Part shown: piece after piece, positions 34,610 to 49,220 of the stretch | Position numbering within the stretch: the stretch's first letter is position 1 | Layout of the letters: the number at the start of each line of letters is the position of its first letter | Origin: Yoonia sp. R2331 | Lineage (GTDB): Bacteria; Pseudomonadota; Alphaproteobacteria; Rhodobacterales; Rhodobacteraceae | DNA: 64,000 nucleotides | Direction of reading: 5' to 3' | NCBI RefSeq assembly: GCF_041103235.1 | Contig: NZ_JBGCUN010000001.1 | Span: 1,054,001 to 1,118,000 of the forward strand | The notes under the pieces: generated by a model | Seen by the model: only the letters and a program-made list of their open reading frames with translations | What the model was told of the DNA's origin: nothing | Databases searched by the model: none | Translations under genes and position numbers: made by a program

Positions 34610-34654
34610 CAAATTTCTTCGAAGAAATTTGCCAAAACTCTTCGAAGAGTTTTG
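34610..34654. repeat. pair of adjacent 22-bp perfect palindromes
   Basis: Palindrome 1 spans 34610-34631 (left arm CAAATTTCTTC) and palindrome 2 spans 34633-34654 (left arm CAAAACTCTTC), with one base between. Both are perfect and share the CTTCGAAG centre. Together they make two A+T-rich hairpins in the nuoJ-nuoK gap. I recall similar tandem TTCGAA-centred elements from other Roseobacter-group genomes, so this is probably a dispersed repeat inserted inside the operon. It may act as an RNA-processing or stability element. Confidence 0.75.
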
Positions 34655-43350: not shown

Positions 43351-43980
43351 CTAGCCGTTGCACATCCAAAGGCCACCGCCCACGGCGACCACGCTCAGCG
43401 CAGTGGCTGACAGCCCCATGGGGGTGGTCACCGCAGCGGCGAGCGCGGCTGATCCCAATTCCTCGGCCTTGTCTTGCAAGACGTCGCGGCCCAGCGTCAT
43501 GATCATCACGCCAGACGCATGCGCCATAACCGCGCTGTCGGGATCGGGTTCGGCATAAAGCATCAGAGCCATGCGATTGGTCAGCCCAACGATGTCATCT
43601 GCCGCGCCGTTGATTTGCTGGCAAGTTGACACCGCACAGCGCCCGCGAAAGTTGCGCTGCCCTGGCACCAAAAGCCAGCCGGTCTGTGCATCACCCTCTG
43701 CCAGACAATAGCCGTCGGTATTGGGCAGGCCTTCGATGCCAGCCATGAAATCAAGTGTGACATCGCTGGTGCAGGTGGGCAGGGTGCCGGTCAACGCATT
43801 CAGGCTGCGACGCGGCCATGACAGCATATTCTCGCGGATCGTAGCACCGTCGCCATAAAGATCAGTGTTGACCACAACGTCCATCGCGTTGACGCGCACG
43901 GTGCAATCGTCAGCCAATGCCGGTGTGCTGGCGCAAATGGCCAGCACCGCCGCAATCGCCTTATGCTTTGGCCCGTTCAT
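43351..43980 (-). CDS. exported cysteine-containing protein of unknown function
   Basis: A 209-residue protein with a cleavable signal peptide (about residues 1-23, ending TPALA then DDCTV). The mature part contains about six cysteines, including the DDCTV start, PTCTSDV, DGYCLAEG and RCAVSTCQ, which suggests disulfides in the periplasm. A hydrophobic C-terminal region (about 178-205, rich in Ala/Val/Gly) ends GGGLWMCNG and might be membrane-associated. The first 20 bases overlap the 3' end of rhlE, so it follows the helicase on the same transcript. No family recognised. Confidence 0.65.
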   Translation of the reverse strand: MNGPKHKAIAAVLAICASTPALADDCTVRVNAMDVVVNTDLYGDGATIRENMLSWPRRSLNALTGTLPTCTSDVTLDFMAGIEGLPNTDGYCLAEGDAQTGWLLVPGQRNFRGRCAVSTCQQINGAADDIVGLTNRMALMLYAEPDPDSAVMAHASGVMIMTLGRDVLQDKAEELGSAALAAAVTTPMGLSATALSVVAVGGGLWMCNG

Positions 43981-45427
43981 CAAAGCTGAGCGCGATGAAG
44001 GCTGGGGTATCATCGCCCATGCCCACGATCTTTTCGTGCTGTTTGCCGCCACCGTCACCCTTCTTGCCGCCGCGATTACGGCCACCGCGCTGGCGCGGTT
44101 CGCGCTGCGGTTTATCCTTGGACGTATCCGTAGTCTCGGCAGATTTGGGCTCGTCCGTTTGCGGGGCCTCTGCTACGGGTGCTGCGTCAACCTCTTCACG
44201 CGGCTTGCGCGAGCGGGTGCGGCGTGGCTTGTCTTCACGCACAGGGGCATCTTCTTCGGGCTTGGCACCACCTTTGCTGGGCATAGGATCGTCCAGCCGG
44301 GGAATTTCGTGGTTCACCAGCCGTTCAACGTCAGCAAGGTTCTTTTCGTCGCGCGGATTGCAGATCATGATCGCAACGCCAGAGCGGCCAGCGCGGCCCG
44401 TGCGACCAATGCGGTGCACGTAGTCCTCAGCGTGGCTGGGCACATCAAAGTTGAACACGTGGCTCACGGCCGGAATATCCAGACCCCGCGCCGCCACGTC
44501 AGAGGCCACAAGAAAACGCAGGCGATTTTCGCGGAAACCATCCAGTGTCCGCGTCCGCACGCTTTGGTCCAGATCACCGTGGATCGCACCGGCATCGTAG
44601 CCGTATTTCTTCAATGATTTCGAAACGATATCCACATCCGACTTGCGGTTGCAGAAGATGATCGCGTTTGAACACGCCTCGCCCTCGGCATCAATCAGCG
44701 CACGCAACAGCTTGCGCTTTTCGCTGTCGGCACGGTCACGGCGCGAGCCTTTGAACATCACAACGCCCTGTTTGATGTTCTCGTTCGTGGTTGCCGCGCG
44801 GGCGACCTCAATCTTGACCGGGGCAGAAAGGAAGGTATTGGTGATCCGCTCAATCTCGGGCGCCATGGTGGCCGAGAAGAACAGGGTCTGGCGGGTGAAG
44901 GGCGTCTTTTTGAAGATCTCTTCGATATCCGGAATAAAACCCATATCAAGCATCCGGTCGGCTTCGTCCACCACCATGACCTTGACGTCTGACAGGATCA
45001 GCTTGCCACGTTCAAAATGGTCCAGCAGTCGGCCCGGTGTGGCGATCAGCACATCGACGCCTTTGTCGATCAGCAGGTCCTGTTCCTTGAACGAGGTGCC
45101 ACCGATCAGCAGCGCCTTGGTCAGCTTGGTGTACTTGGCATATGTATCAAAGTTTTCAGCAACTTGTGCGGCCAGCTCGCGGGTGGGGGCCAGCACAAGG
45201 CTGCGCGGCATCCGTGCGCGGGCGCGGCCCCGGCCCAACAATGTGATCATCGGCAGGGTAAAGGCCGCCGTCTTTCCGGTGCCGGTCTGTGCGATGCCCA
45301 ACACGTCTTTGCCTTCGAGAGCGGGTGGAATGGCACCGCCCTGAATCGGGGTCGGCGTGTCATAGCCCGTTTCGTCGATGGCTTTCAGAACCTTTTTGTC
45401 GAGGTTCAGATCAGAGAATTTTGTCAT
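43961..45427 (-). CDS. rhlE: DEAD-box ATP-dependent RNA helicase, RhlE type
   Basis: A 488-residue DEAD-box helicase. It has the Q motif (FSDLNL and TPTPIQ), Walker A AQTGTGKT at 46-53, VDEADRML, FFSATM, and the C-terminal motifs ARGLDIPAVSHVFNFD and HRIGRTGRAG. The last 100 residues are a charged, disordered tail with Arg/Gly-rich REPRQRGGRNRGGKK that binds RNA. It remodels structured RNA in ribosome assembly, mRNA decay or cold adaptation. A perfect hairpin lies in its leader 15 bases before the start codon. Confidence 0.94.
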   Translation of the reverse strand: MTKFSDLNLDKKVLKAIDETGYDTPTPIQGGAIPPALEGKDVLGIAQTGTGKTAAFTLPMITLLGRGRARARMPRSLVLAPTRELAAQVAENFDTYAKYTKLTKALLIGGTSFKEQDLLIDKGVDVLIATPGRLLDHFERGKLILSDVKVMVVDEADRMLDMGFIPDIEEIFKKTPFTRQTLFFSATMAPEIERITNTFLSAPVKIEVARAATTNENIKQGVVMFKGSRRDRADSEKRKLLRALIDAEGEACSNAIIFCNRKSDVDIVSKSLKKYGYDAGAIHGDLDQSVRTRTLDGFRENRLRFLVASDVAARGLDIPAVSHVFNFDVPSHAEDYVHRIGRTGRAGRSGVAIMICNPRDEKNLADVERLVNHEIPRLDDPMPSKGGAKPEEDAPVREDKPRRTRSRKPREEVDAAPVAEAPQTDEPKSAETTDTSKDKPQREPRQRGGRNRGGKKGDGGGKQHEKIVGMGDDTPAFIALSFDERAKA

Positions 45428-45442
45428 GTAGCCCTTTCAAGT

Positions 45443-45465
45443 CTTGCGGCTTTATTGGCCGCAAG
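45443..45465. promoter_or_regulatory. perfect 8-bp hairpin in the rhlE leader
   Basis: CTTGCGGC (45443-45450) and GCCGCAAG (45458-45465) flank a seven-base A/T-rich loop. On the rhlE mRNA the hairpin ends 15 bases before the ATG, next to the GAAAGGG ribosome-binding site. Helicase mRNAs are often controlled through leader structure, so this may be an autoregulatory or cold-responsive element. Confidence 0.45.
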
Positions 45466-45505
45466 ATTGCGCGGCCCGCTGGACCGGATTGTCCAAGCGT
45501 TCGAC

Positions 45506-45564
45506 AAAAAAGCCCCTACGCCCTTCTTTCAGAAAGGTCAAGGAAACCTGCCGGTTCAGGGGCT
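45506..45564 (-). terminator. probable terminator downstream of the 45564 gene
   Basis: On the minus strand, AGCCCCT (45564-45558) overlaps the stop codon of the upstream gene and pairs with AGGGGCT (45517-45511), which is followed directly by a run of T (45511-45506). The loop is about 40 bases and holds a smaller hairpin. The T-run after a GC stem fits an intrinsic terminator. Confidence 0.45.
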
Positions 45565-46178
45565 TATTCGGCCGAAGGGTGCAAATCAGGGCAATATCCG
45601 GCGCGTAGAACGGCGATCGACGGTGCCGGCGTCATAACTGTCATGTCACCGGTTCTGGGGCGCGGCCGTTTTGGGCCATATCCATCAGGTGAGTAGGCGC
45701 GCATATGGTCGGACCGGATCAGGTGCGGGCGATCAGCCACCAGCGCAAAACAGCCATTCGGCAGATCGGCCGCCGGTGCACGATGGGTGATCTGCCGATG
45801 CTGGCGCGGGACGACGCGGGTTCGATGCAAGGCGTCATCCATGTCTGGTGCACTCGGGACGGACCCTGTGGCATCGGTCCAAGCCTCGCGATACCGCAGG
45901 TAGGCCGCGCGCCTGCAATAGGCACAAGGGCGGTGCCCGGCTGCAATTGCCACGGCCTCGTCCAAAAAGAACAACTCAGTCCAGTTGCGTCCGGTCATGA
46001 CCTGCCGTTTGCGGCCTTGCCAGTGCAAGACGCAGCAAATCCAGGCCTTGTGCCGCCAGCGTGCGGTTCCAAGGGTGCGATCGGGATTATGGAGGATGCC
46101 CCGGTTGCCGGTCATCGTTCCGCGTGCGGACAGGGCGACGATCTGGCCGTCAGGCAGGACACGGTTTTGCAAAGGCAT
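45564..46178 (-). CDS. conserved hypothetical protein with HRPCAYCRR motif
   Basis: A 204-residue soluble protein that I recognise as a widespread but uncharacterised alphaproteobacterial family. Family-like segments are the start MPLQNRVLPDGQIVALSARG, TGNRGILHNPDRTLG, RSW-type NWTELFFLDEAVAIAAGHRP, and the CAYCRRAAYLRYREAW motif. The CxxC could bind a metal. No signal peptide. A probable terminator overlaps its stop codon. Function unknown. Confidence 0.72.
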   Translation of the reverse strand: MPLQNRVLPDGQIVALSARGTMTGNRGILHNPDRTLGTARWRHKAWICCVLHWQGRKRQVMTGRNWTELFFLDEAVAIAAGHRPCAYCRRAAYLRYREAWTDATGSVPSAPDMDDALHRTRVVPRQHRQITHRAPAADLPNGCFALVADRPHLIRSDHMRAYSPDGYGPKRPRPRTGDMTVMTPAPSIAVLRAGYCPDLHPSAE

Positions 46179-46187
46179 ACCGGCAGG

Positions 46188-46664
46188 TTAGGGGGTCTGA
46201 CGCAGTTGCGCCAGTACGCGGACGAAAGCCTCTGCCGGAACGATGCCTTCGGCACGTCCGCGCAAACCCCAAACCCGCAAAGGCAGCCCACTACGGGCAG
46301 CGGCGCGAAAGGTCGCTTCGGACAGATGAACAGCGCCGACCTCTGCTGCCTGACATCCGTCGATGCAATGGGTGCGCAGTCGGTCATGGCGGACGTAGAC
46401 CATGTCATGCCCTAAAGAGGTGACCCGTTCGATCCGCGGTCCATTTGCGTCGCGCCGCCGCAGATTGGTCAGTACCGCATATCCCGTTTGCCCGTCTTTG
46501 ACGATGATCGTGGGGCGCGCCACCAGGATTGCATCATCATCGCGATAAATCTCGCGTTCCTGAACAGTGATTGTCTGATGTCCGGTCCATGCATCTCTGG
46601 TGACCAAGACTTGGTCGCGGATACATCCCGCGAGAAGCAGGAACAGAAGGGGTATGCGCCACAT
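46188..46664 (-). CDS. putative lipoprotein
   Basis: A 158-residue protein with a short signal peptide and lipobox LLAGC (Cys at about residue 14). The mature part contains a Cys pair in THCIDGCQAAEVGAVHL that probably forms a disulfide. A beta-rich first half (HQTITVQEREIYRDDDAI) precedes it. It lies nine bases upstream of the 45564 gene on the same strand, so both are likely co-transcribed. No family recognised. Confidence 0.68.
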   Translation of the reverse strand: MWRIPLLFLLLAGCIRDQVLVTRDAWTGHQTITVQEREIYRDDDAILVARPTIIVKDGQTGYAVLTNLRRRDANGPRIERVTSLGHDMVYVRHDRLRTHCIDGCQAAEVGAVHLSEATFRAAARSGLPLRVWGLRGRAEGIVPAEAFVRVLAQLRQTP

Positions 46665-46714
46665 GCCCGCACAGTGTTCGCAGATTGGTTAACAAAACCC
46701 AAAGACCAACAACG

Positions 46715-46740
46715 AAAAAGGGCGCCTAAGTAAGGCGCCC
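46715..46740 (-). terminator. intrinsic terminator of the VPLPA-CTERM gene
   Basis: On the minus strand GGGCGCC (46740-46734) pairs with GGCGCCC (46726-46720) around a seven-base loop, followed by five T (46719-46715). It lies 24 bases after the stop of the gene at 46764 and is one of the clearest intrinsic terminators in the window. Confidence 0.8.
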
Positions 46741-46763
46741 CCTTTGCAATCTGTCGACGATTC

Positions 46764-47528
46764 TTAGGCCTTGCGGCGCTTTGCTGCGGCCAGACCACCA
46801 AATGCCGCAATCAACAACCAGCCGGCTGCGGGAAGGGGCACGTCGTTGAGGTTGCCGTCTGGCAAGTCAGCAAGATTCAGGTTGAAGTCACCATGAGAAT
46901 CGAACCCAACAAAGTCAAAGTGCTGTGCAACAGTTTGATCGGCCGCATCGCTTGTCTTCGTGGCGTTGAACCAGAACGACATCCCGTTCTTGTTGTTGTC
47001 GACCAAGGCATTGGCATCAATCCCGACCTGCGCAGGGTGATTGCTATTGGTCATGTCGGCAATGCTGTAGCTCAGACCCGCCAACGTGCCGAGGCCAGAG
47101 ATTGTCGATGTGCCATCGATATCAAAGTAATTCCAAAGCGACGGATCAATGTCGCCATTTGCAATCATCTGCTGATGTGCCTGGCTTGCGCATCCGCCGT
47201 CTGGACCACCAACAAACTGGCAGTACCCGGCTGATGGGGTGGTCTGCGTCAATTGAATATTCACCGCCATTTCGATGGCCGAATTCGCGATGTTCTTGAT
47301 CGTCCCGACAAGAGACGCCTGCGTACCACCGTTGCCAACGATGAGCGCAGCATCATTCTTGAACGACCAAAGATGGCTCAACTGCGAGGAAATCCCAAAA
47401 CCCCAGACGGTTCGGTTTCCGTTGTAGTCAGACGCGGCATAGATCCCGTCTGTCAATTGTGCAGCTGATGCAGTGAACGGTGCCGTCGCAGCAAGAATCG
47501 TAGCCGCAACTATTGCCCTGAATTTCAT
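46764..47528 (-). CDS. VPLPA-CTERM sorting-signal protein
   Basis: A 254-residue exported protein. A signal peptide (about 1-22, ending TASAA) leads a beta-rich domain with a Cys pair (GYCQFVGGPDGGCAS). The C-terminus DVPLPAAGWLLIAAFGGLAA followed by RRK is a VPLPA-CTERM anchor: motif, hydrophobic helix, basic end. Such proteins are thought to be processed by an exosortase and carried to the cell surface or into exopolysaccharide; no exosortase is in the window. A strong promoter and an own terminator mark it as a separate transcription unit. Confidence 0.85.
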   Translation of the reverse strand: MKFRAIVAATILAATAPFTASAAQLTDGIYAASDYNGNRTVWGFGISSQLSHLWSFKNDAALIVGNGGTQASLVGTIKNIANSAIEMAVNIQLTQTTPSAGYCQFVGGPDGGCASQAHQQMIANGDIDPSLWNYFDIDGTSTISGLGTLAGLSYSIADMTNSNHPAQVGIDANALVDNNKNGMSFWFNATKTSDAADQTVAQHFDFVGFDSHGDFNLNLADLPDGNLNDVPLPAAGWLLIAAFGGLAAAKRRKA

Positions 47529-47562
47529 AACCTTAACCCTCGTAAACAAAACACTGGTCAAG

Positions 47563-47591
47563 ATTTTAGCGGATTTCCGCCTGTTTTTCAA
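47563..47591 (-). promoter_or_regulatory. sigma-70-type promoter of the VPLPA-CTERM gene
   Basis: On the minus strand TTGAAA (47591-47586), a 17-base spacer, and TAAAAT (47568-47563) lie 34 bases before the start codon. The spacer holds the dyad GCGGA-AA-TCCGC (47580-47569), a possible operator. It is the best promoter match I see in the window. Confidence 0.6.
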
Positions 47592-47612
47592 CACAATTGG
47601 CCCGGGGGTAGG

Positions 47613-49220
47613 TCAGACCATCATCTCTTTTGTGTTTGACAGGGTCACATCCGGATAATCACGGCCGACACGGTCGATGTCCCATTGCAAACGGGTCAGG
47701 AACACCGTGTCGCCGTCGTTATCAAGGGCAATGTGCTGTTTGTTGGCAGCGGCAAAGGCGTCGACAGCGTCTTTGGCACCATGAACCCAACGTGCCGATG
47801 TGAACTGAGAACCCTCAAAGCGAACGGGCAGCCCGTATTCCATCTCAATCCGGCTGGCGAGCACTTCGAATTGCAAGGCACCGACGACACCTACGATAAA
47901 GCCCGACCCGAACGTCGGCTTAAACACCTTGGCGGCCCCTTCCTCGGCGAATTGCATCAGGGCCTTTTCAAGGTGCTTTGCCTTCATTGGATCACCAGCG
48001 CGACACGCCTGCAGCAACTCCGGAGCGAAAGAGGGGATGCCAGTCACCCGGATCGCTTCGCCCTCGGTCAGCGTATCACCAATGCGCAGTTGCCCGTGGT
48101 TCGGGATACCGATGATGTCACCCGCCCAGCCTTCTTCGGCCAATTCGCGATCAGCGGCGAGGAACATGACCGGGTTAGCGACGGCCATCACCTTTTTGCT
48201 GCGCACATGCGTCAGCTTCATGCCGCGCTGAAAGTGACCAGAGGCGAGCCGAACAAAGGCCACGCGGTCGCGATGCTTGGGGTCCATATTCGCCTGCACC
48301 TTGAACACGAAACCCGCGACGTTCTTTTCCTCGGGCGCGATTGACCGGGGTTCAGCCTTTTGCACCTGTGGTTCGGGGCCATAGGTGCCGATGCCGTCCA
48401 TCAGCTCTTTCACGCCAAAGGAATTGATCGCAGAACCAAACCAGATCGGCGTCATCGACCCGTTCAATACGCTTTCTTGGTCTAGTGGGGGCAGCAGCTC
48501 TTTTGCCATCTCGATCTCTTCAAGGAACTTGTCCAGCAGACGGGCCGGGATATGTTCGGCCAATTTGGGATCATCAAGTCCTTTGATTTCAATGCTTTCC
48601 GCGACCTTGTTGCGGTCGGCGCGGTCCATCAATTCCAATCGGTCGCGCAGGATGTCATAGGTGCCCATGAAATCGCGCCCAACACCGATAGGCCAGGCTG
48701 CGGGGGTAACATCAATCGCCAGATTCTCCTGAATCTCGTCGATAATTTCGAACGTATCGCGGCTCTCGCGGTCCATCTTGTTACAAAACGTCAGAATAGG
48801 AAGGTCGCGTAAGCGGCAGACTTCAAACAGTTTTTGCGTTTGGCTCTCGACCCCTTTGGCCCCGTCGATCACCATCACAGCAGCATCCACGGCCGTCAGC
48901 GTGCGATAGGTGTCTTCGGAAAAGTCAGAGTGGCCGGGCGTGTCGACCAAATTAAAGCGAAAATTGTTGTCCGCATTGGCAAAATCAAATGACATTGCCG
49001 ACGCGCTGACAGAGATGCCGCGGTCTTTTTCCATCTGCATAAAGTCCGACCGCGTGCGGCGCGCTTCGCCTTTGGCACGGACCTGTCCGGCCATCTGAAT
49101 TGCGCCACCATACAGCAAGAATTTCTCGGTCAGTGTGGTCTTGCCCGCATCCGGATGCGAGATAATTGCAAAGGTGCGGCGGCGGGCGATTTCGGCAGGA
49201 AGGTCAGGGCGATTTGTCAT
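47613..49220 (-). CDS. prfC: peptide chain release factor 3
   Basis: RF3 is a translational GTPase that recycles RF1/RF2 after termination. The 535-residue protein has G1 SHPDAGKTTL (about 22-31), the switch region RGISVSASAM, G3 DTPGHSDF, and G4 NKMDRE. Its C-terminal domains include FGSAINSFGVKELMD and the VVGALQFEVLASRIEMEY segment. I chose ATG 49220 with GAGG six bases upstream; a GTG at 49226 is also in frame. It stands alone on the minus strand. Confidence 0.95.
   Translation of the reverse strand: MTNRPDLPAEIARRRTFAIISHPDAGKTTLTEKFLLYGGAIQMAGQVRAKGEARRTRSDFMQMEKDRGISVSASAMSFDFANADNNFRFNLVDTPGHSDFSEDTYRTLTAVDAAVMVIDGAKGVESQTQKLFEVCRLRDLPILTFCNKMDRESRDTFEIIDEIQENLAIDVTPAAWPIGVGRDFMGTYDILRDRLELMDRADRNKVAESIEIKGLDDPKLAEHIPARLLDKFLEEIEMAKELLPPLDQESVLNGSMTPIWFGSAINSFGVKELMDGIGTYGPEPQVQKAEPRSIAPEEKNVAGFVFKVQANMDPKHRDRVAFVRLASGHFQRGMKLTHVRSKKVMAVANPVMFLAADRELAEEGWAGDIIGIPNHGQLRIGDTLTEGEAIRVTGIPSFAPELLQACRAGDPMKAKHLEKALMQFAEEGAAKVFKPTFGSGFIVGVVGALQFEVLASRIEMEYGLPVRFEGSQFTSARWVHGAKDAVDAFAAANKQHIALDNDGDTVFLTRLQWDIDRVGRDYPDVTLSNTKEMMV

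Follow-up and report, generated by a model that had tools for sequence, protein, structure and literature searches.

We consider it fairly probable that the leader of the rhlE mRNA is a cis-regulatory RNA of 80-90 nt with two folds, which would act on translation and is perhaps set by the level of RhlE or by cold. Two competing shapes of this leader probably control the amount of helicase made, as judged from the leaders of related bacteria. The window referred to below is the whole stretch of DNA that was analysed (64,000 nucleotides). Because the matches of the 488-aa protein to the NCBIfam RhlE and CshA models, strong as they are, fall under the cut-offs of these models, the gene is named rhlE by resemblance only. 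The features on which the description relies are the following (coordinates of the window).

45536..45541, minus strand: -35 element TTGACC, conserved in rhlE leaders.
45513..45518, minus strand: -10 element TAGGGG, weak, of which TA alone is the conserved part (comparison of rhlE leaders).
45428..45506, minus strand: predicted 5' leader, its start inferred from the promoter; fold z -4.0.
45478..45498, minus strand: helix P1, its conserved loop being AATCCG (consensus AAUNYG); compensatory changes at 6 of its 7 pairs among 62 sequences.
45471..45476, minus strand: strand A (GGCCGC), predicted to pair with strand B (early fold) or, through its GGCC, with the GGCU of the Shine-Dalgarno (SD) region (late fold; from energy only).
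45457..45463, minus strand: strand B (TGCGGCC), common to both alternative helices.
45442..45466, minus strand: the hairpin under study, i.e. the B:C helix, 9 bp (sequence and conservation).
45445..45450, minus strand: strand C (GCCGCA), predicted late-fold partner of B; B:C with 94.6% of cells paired.
45430..45438, minus strand: SD region GAAAGGGCT (from the sequence), partly paired in the minimum-energy fold; AAAGG in 52 of 62 type 1 leaders.
43961..45427, minus strand: DEAD-box RNA helicase gene, rhlE-like, 488 aa (Pfam DEAD and Helicase_C).

On the minus strand the hairpin consists of TCTTGCGGC (45466-45458), the loop CAATAAA (45457-45451) and GCCGCAAGA (45450-45442), i.e. 9 perfect pairs around a 7-nt loop at 45442-45466. 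The preliminary description had a perfect hairpin of 8 bp, which is right as to its presence and one pair short as to its length; the 15 bases it counted from the stem to the start codon are 14 nt by the coordinates (ATG at 45427-45425), and as to its placement at the ribosome-binding site, GAAAGGGCT (45438-45430) follows the stem downstream and lies outside the hairpin. In isolation such a hairpin is close to chance: the window has three perfect hairpins of at least 9 bp (loop 3-8), and 10 first-order Markov copies had 2.0 on average. (At 34610-34654 of the window two perfect hairpins, each with 9 bp and a 4-nt loop, stand side by side, namely at 34610-34631 and 34633-34654.) The fold of the leader at 45500-45410 had a z of -4.0, and among the leaders of the window's ORFs of at least 200 aa that of rhlE ranked 1 of 41 by fold z (-5.1; the next was -2.7). 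The minimum-energy fold of the window's leader pairs the GGCU of the SD region with an upstream GGCC and leaves the AAA of the SD region free; the predicted unpaired probability of AAAGGG at 37°C is 0.57, and the accessibility of the wider SD region is ordinary (rank 20 of 41 leaders). Related sequences show that the hairpin belongs to a selected RNA structure, being one helix of a predicted structured leader of about 80 nt that is conserved through the Rhodobacteraceae.

Other identities of the element were rejected. A terminator is not supported by a T-run after the hairpin on either strand, and the hairpin is absent from the list of the terminator scan. No curated covariance model of Rfam matched the leader: positions 43500-47700 of the window gave two matches (best E 1.7), both far under their gathering scores and outside the leader, and 16 other leaders gave no match at E up to 1.

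The 125 nt before the start codon were read at the rhlE loci of all six genomes of the genus (own genome included) and at 80 further loci. The leaders were first sorted into types by eye; L048 was added later, and the duplicates L003, L008, L009 and L016 were dropped. Type 1, to which the window belongs together with Loktanella, Salibaculum, Limimaricola and others, has the order P1 - GGCCGC (A) - GCGGCC (B) - GCCGC (C) - AAAGG. Type 2 (Roseobacter, Sulfitobacter, Roseovarius and others) has the 3' part GCGGGC - GUGUCCG - CGGACAC - AUG, and type 3 (many Yoonia and others) reads GGGACGC - GCGUCC - hairpin - GGACGU - AUG. In every architecture one strand can pair either with an early competitor or with a late partner on the side of the ribosome site, but not with both. 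A helix finder, run without a control, returned both an SD helix and a competitor for all 14 type 3 leaders, and among the other 27 leaders it found no SD helix in three and no competitor in three. Three leaders that covariance models 1 and 2 (see below) missed, L177, L182 and L188, look by eye like a fourth architecture, in which UACGGC:GCCGUA competes with CCGUA:UACGG(A) at the SD region; the pattern is clearest in L188.

Alignment A6 of type 1 holds 62 of 64 sequences, the weak rhlE leaders L208 and L209 having missed the threshold; four duplicates (L088, L089, L097 and L110) were kept out of the input. (In another alignment set five duplicate loci were left out, and alignment A2 was made without L059, L060 and L061.) A6, A5 (type 2) and A8 (type 3) were each fitted to the helices of their own model, which favours the counts for those helices; the models contain neither P2 of type 3 nor the early helix of type 1 or type 2. 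The type 1 structure is conserved and covaries, with 79 double-changed cells over its whole extent compared with 21.4 ± 3.7 after shuffling (0 of 500 shuffles), mostly in P1. Double changes occurred at 6 of the 7 pairs of P1, and 0 of 1000 permutations were as good (relatedness uncorrected). The search for compensatory substitutions among relatives, proposed in the preliminary description, was run on the hairpin as well: the stem is maintained, since in A6, an alignment fitted to this stem, 94.6% of its cells are paired and two of its six pairs show double changes. The hairpin extension covaries, giving -5.23 kcal/mol with its own partner compared with -3.32 kcal/mol with swapped partners (0 of 1000 permutations as good, relatedness uncorrected). 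On the strength of the maintained hairpin and of the compensatory changes in its extension and in P1, cis-regulation of the helicase by its leader, as predicted from the relatives, is well supported; to this extent the earlier suggestion of a control through the leader is partly supported, and autoregulation by the helicase would be one form of it.

The A:B helix of type 1 is nearly invariant (99.5% of 371 cells paired). Its one double change (L094) was reached by 31 of 500 shuffles, and in the duplex test 2 of 1000 permutations were as good (relatedness uncorrected). Covariation lends no support to a pairing of A with the SD region in type 1, where 402 of 1000 permutations did as well; this pairing reaches at least 4 bp in 33 of 62 leaders compared with 15% with shuffled SD segments. 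Helix 2 of the type 1 alignment was 71.0% paired with zero double changes. From a 30-row MAFFT alignment of type 1, RNAalifold chose P1 and A:B, not the hairpin under study; 6 of the 14 pairs of this consensus had double changes, all within P1. Most single type 1 leaders fold into the late form.

In type 2 (100 sequences, A5, fitted to its own model), the hairpin that holds the SD region had 95.1% of its cells paired, and two of its seven pairs showed double changes. The modelled structure had 44 double-changed cells compared with 7.7 after shuffling, and the number of its pairs with a double change was not above the shuffles (4 vs 3.5). The competitor helix lies outside the alignment model and uses the same middle strand as the SD hairpin; it is conserved, with 600 of 600 cells paired in the 100 sequences. 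Its end pair is G-C in 64, A-U in 29 and G-U in 7 sequences, and its second pair is A-U in one (L246). The state of the end pair changed at least 20 times on the rhlE protein tree. Because sign tests on the supported branches of the tree were under-powered (4 vs 0, median p 0.125; 3 vs 0, median p 0.25), the competitor pair was simulated: zero A-C mismatches were observed, a value reached by 0 of 2000 tree simulations of independent evolution (mean 18.1, minimum 6). Type 2 leaders have two conserved helices that exclude each other, with the SD region inside one of them.

In type 3 (55 sequences, A8, fitted to its own model), pairing amounted to 99.5% in P1, where 4 of the 7 pairs had double changes, and to 86.9% in P2, where 5 of the 6 pairs had them; the P2 loop is CCGAU in 27 of 55 leaders by a strict pattern. 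The helix between anti-SD and SD of type 3 was 96.7% paired with no column covariation, and 5 of 1000 permutations were as good in the duplex test (relatedness uncorrected). Conservation of both mutually exclusive helices with a strand in common is thus indicated for type 2 and, more weakly, for types 1 and 3.

Upstream of the leaders, TTGA-N17-TA was present in 82 of 82 rhlE leaders of the first set compared with 4-6% of Markov copies (spacers 16-18), and the fifth -35 base was C, i.e. TTGAC, in all 82 (30 type 1, 38 type 2 and 14 type 3 leaders, with L059, L060 and L061 included). The median distance from the end of the -10 element to the start codon was 86 nt in type 1, 98 nt in type 2 and 93 nt in type 3; from the conserved position of the promoter, leaders of about 80-90 nt are therefore predicted. 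The promoter TTGAC-N17-TA (45513-45541 in the window, and in the 82 leaders) has a poor -10 element, the last T of which is not conserved; we take this to be perhaps the usual form of promoters in the Rhodobacteraceae. On the minus strand at 45507-45568, just after the upstream ORF (stop codon 45566-45564), a terminator-like stem AGCCCC...GGGGCT followed by TTTTTT overlaps the -35 and -10 elements of rhlE; its T-run is present in the same species (L003) and missing from four other members of the genus (L004-L007). An ORF at 46764-47594 (minus strand) ends in a C-terminus of the form VPLPAAGWLL...RRKA, presumably a VPLPA/PEP-CTERM sorting tail by its looks; a Pfam search of this ORF gave no match.

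One covariance model per type was searched against 295 genomes of the Rhodobacteraceae, and models 1-3 jointly placed the leader in 231 of them, with no overlap between the three sets. An rhlE match (E up to 1e-120) was present in 284 of the 295 genomes, and the 231 include three genomes (G061, G074 and G278) without an rhlE match at this strict threshold. Because the training sequences (R1, R2) overlap the searched genomes, the best matches are partly the training set itself. Model 1 matched 44 family genomes, 39 of them at rhlE (30 and a further 8 checked, G055 by matching coordinates), and the other five (G248, G024, G104, G044 and G154) had only a weak match away from rhlE. Model 2 matched 113 family genomes, the best 30 of which were checked at rhlE; 40 further matches, which have an rhlE-like start and an uninterrupted coding part of 300 aa or more, were used in the rhlE tree. 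Model 3 matched 95 family genomes. In 79 of these E was no higher than 3e-5, and the location at rhlE was checked for the best 30; the 16 genomes with only E above 3e-5 were left out of the counts. The best matches stood directly before rhlE in 60 of 60 cases for types 1 and 2 and in 30 of 30 for type 3, the distance of these 90 from the first matched rhlE codon being about 60 nt at most. A class-wide search of 190 genomes with models 1 and 2 only gave matches in three genomes, all in the family (model 1 in the window's own genome alone, model 2 in two). The leader is tied to rhlE, with constant position and orientation before this one gene.

Widespread use at other genes was rejected, the six model 1 matches away from rhlE that were examined being weak (E 7e-5 to 0.008; L203-L207 and L211). 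One of them (L204, 500-581, E 2e-4) is similar by eye, with P1-like and GCGGC/GCCGC-like parts, and precedes GAAAGGGC and an ATG that belongs to a different gene, which may be a second one to carry such a leader; its genome (G024) also has a type 2 leader at rhlE (L249). A repeat was rejected as well: within its own genome the leader DNA matches itself alone (E up to 0.001), and model 1 matches that genome once.

The order in which the early and late folds form was computed, as was their stability relative to each other. When either helix was forced at 37°C, the late one was favoured by a median of 3.0 kcal/mol in type 1 (with B:C alone forced as the late fold) and 3.6 kcal/mol in type 2; for 9 of the 62 leaders of type 1 and 13 of the 100 of type 2 the early fold was computed to be the more stable. 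At equilibrium the late fold is favoured more strongly in the cold, and because of this stabilisation an induction by cold needs kinetics. In prefix folding, run without a shuffled control, the early helix of each of the three types reached a median peak probability of 0.91-1.0 and dropped to about 0 once the leader was complete. It exceeded 0.5 during prefix folding in 59 of 62 (type 1), 68-74 of 100 (type 2) and 53 of 55 leaders (type 3), and the late helix exceeded 0.5 in the full leader in 54-56 of 62, 89 of 100 and 38 of 55, respectively.

The following course of events is proposed. During transcription the early helix would form first, namely A:B in type 1, GCGGGC:GUCCGC in type 2 and GGGACGC:GCGUCC in type 3. 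Once the full leader is made, it would go over to the late fold, usually the more stable one, the shared strand passing to its downstream partner, and the SD region would then be paired (types 2 and 3) or stand, partly paired, at the foot of a long hairpin (type 1). Translation could start on the early fold and would be hindered on the late fold. We infer that the late fold lowers translation and that the level of RhlE or cold sets the balance; the likely input would be the capacity for RNA remodelling, i.e. RhlE itself and/or cold. With scarce helicase or in the cold the early fold would persist and more RhlE be made, and ample RhlE would speed up refolding and close the loop. A stronger form of the proposal is tentative and on the doubtful side, namely that the leader acts as a kinetic fold trap and that the free RNA-remodelling capacity is read from the lifetime of this trap, that RhlE resolves the trap and thereby shuts its own translation, that cold opens it, and that at least three unlike architectures do this at one gene.

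Several other readings were weighed. RhlE or another protein might bind the conserved loops, AAUNYG in P1 of type 1, mostly AUNCG in P1 of type 2 and often CCGAU in P2 of type 3, and repress translation as in ribosomal-protein leaders, the two folds being secondary. Loop sequences that are conserved while their stems covary, in an element tied to one gene as autogenous sites are, agree with such binding; but the sequence and position of the loop vary among the three types, and the strands of the early helices covary or stay invariant although they lie outside those loops, so that we regard this reading as unlikely. That the 5' hairpins act on the stability of the mRNA alone, by shielding it from RNase E or by targeting it for decay, and leave initiation unaffected, is quite improbable in our judgement: stable hairpins do stand near the predicted 5' end, and a stabilisation by the rhlE 5' UTR is proposed for Caulobacter in the available text of PMC5472812, but the mutually exclusive conserved pairings and the SD region inside the type 2 hairpin would be left unexplained.

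An RNA thermometer of the heat type, in which warmth melts the helix that pairs the SD region and more RhlE is made, draws on the G's of the SD region, which are predicted to be paired in all three types. Their predicted unpaired probability is, however, nearly flat between 10 and 50°C, the median going from 0.03 to 0.09 in type 1, from 0.00 to 0.02 in type 2 and from 0.00 to 0.04 in type 3. Moreover, the GC-rich 9-bp stem is very stable, and a conserved competitor helix would be needless. An equilibrium thermometer was rejected on the flat accessibility, and with it goes the plain form of the temperature switch that the preliminary description had attached to the leader; a thermometer of the heat type is very improbable. 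Competing folds that control the SD region are typical of translational riboswitches, and yet a riboswitch for a small molecule is the reading to which we give the least credence: no conserved junction-like aptamer was seen in the alignments, the gene downstream is the helicase in every match checked at rhlE, and three unlike architectures at the same gene come with no Rfam match.

Among known systems, cold-shock leaders of the cspA type have alternative mRNA folds that alter access to the ribosome site, with cold as the input. The rhlE leader differs from these in the lack of an Rfam match, in the gene and in a late fold whose computed stability increases in the cold. Translational riboswitches and ribosomal-protein leaders share with the proposed two-fold leader an anti-SD strand that alternates between a competitor and the SD, and an association with a single gene; unlike them, the rhlE leader comes without a known ligand or protein and in three architectures that have the logic alone in common.

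The closest gene is rhlE of Caulobacter crescentus, which has a leader of 186 nt with predicted stem-loops, a translational fusion that rises at 10°C and transcriptional fusions that are higher in an rhlE null strain (PMC5472812). It is the same kind of gene in another alphaproteobacterium; unlike the leader described here, that of Caulobacter is longer, and a conserved motif or alternative fold is not described in the available text of PMC5472812. Models 1 and 2 were without a match outside the family in the 190 genomes of the class. A helicase-dependent switch, the other form in the preliminary description, would fit both the two-fold architecture and, by analogy, the Caulobacter precedent. 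In Synechocystis the DEAD-box helicase gene crhR autoregulates its own expression with temperature; this is a different phylum, and the available text of PMC3485376 speaks of the half-life of transcript and protein and gives no comparable leader structure.

Conserved structured RNAs limited to the Rhodobacterales have been described, namely the SAM/SAH, HRC-8-4 and uORFC-8-2 motifs (PMC2864571, PMC8632094, available text), which sit at metK, between cco operons and at cysS, respectively, and not at rhlE. An rhlE motif was not found in the available main texts of the surveys of structured RNAs PMC8632094, PMC2864571, PMC6429828 and PMC7247131 (a survey of ribosomal leaders among them), which for PMC8632094 covers the main text as distinct from the supplementary motif list. 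Among the matches listed in literature searches there was no published description of an rhlE leader of the Rhodobacteraceae.

If the proposed two-fold regulation is true, the leader would directly sense the activity that is encoded by its own gene. In our judgement, little is known of how bacteria adjust the amounts of their DEAD-box helicases. The leader would offer a compact system (80-90 nt, in cultivable bacteria) for testing helicase-driven refolding of RNA in cells, and the occurrence of one regulatory logic in three designs, at genes that are related, may be useful for studying the turnover of RNA switches in evolution.
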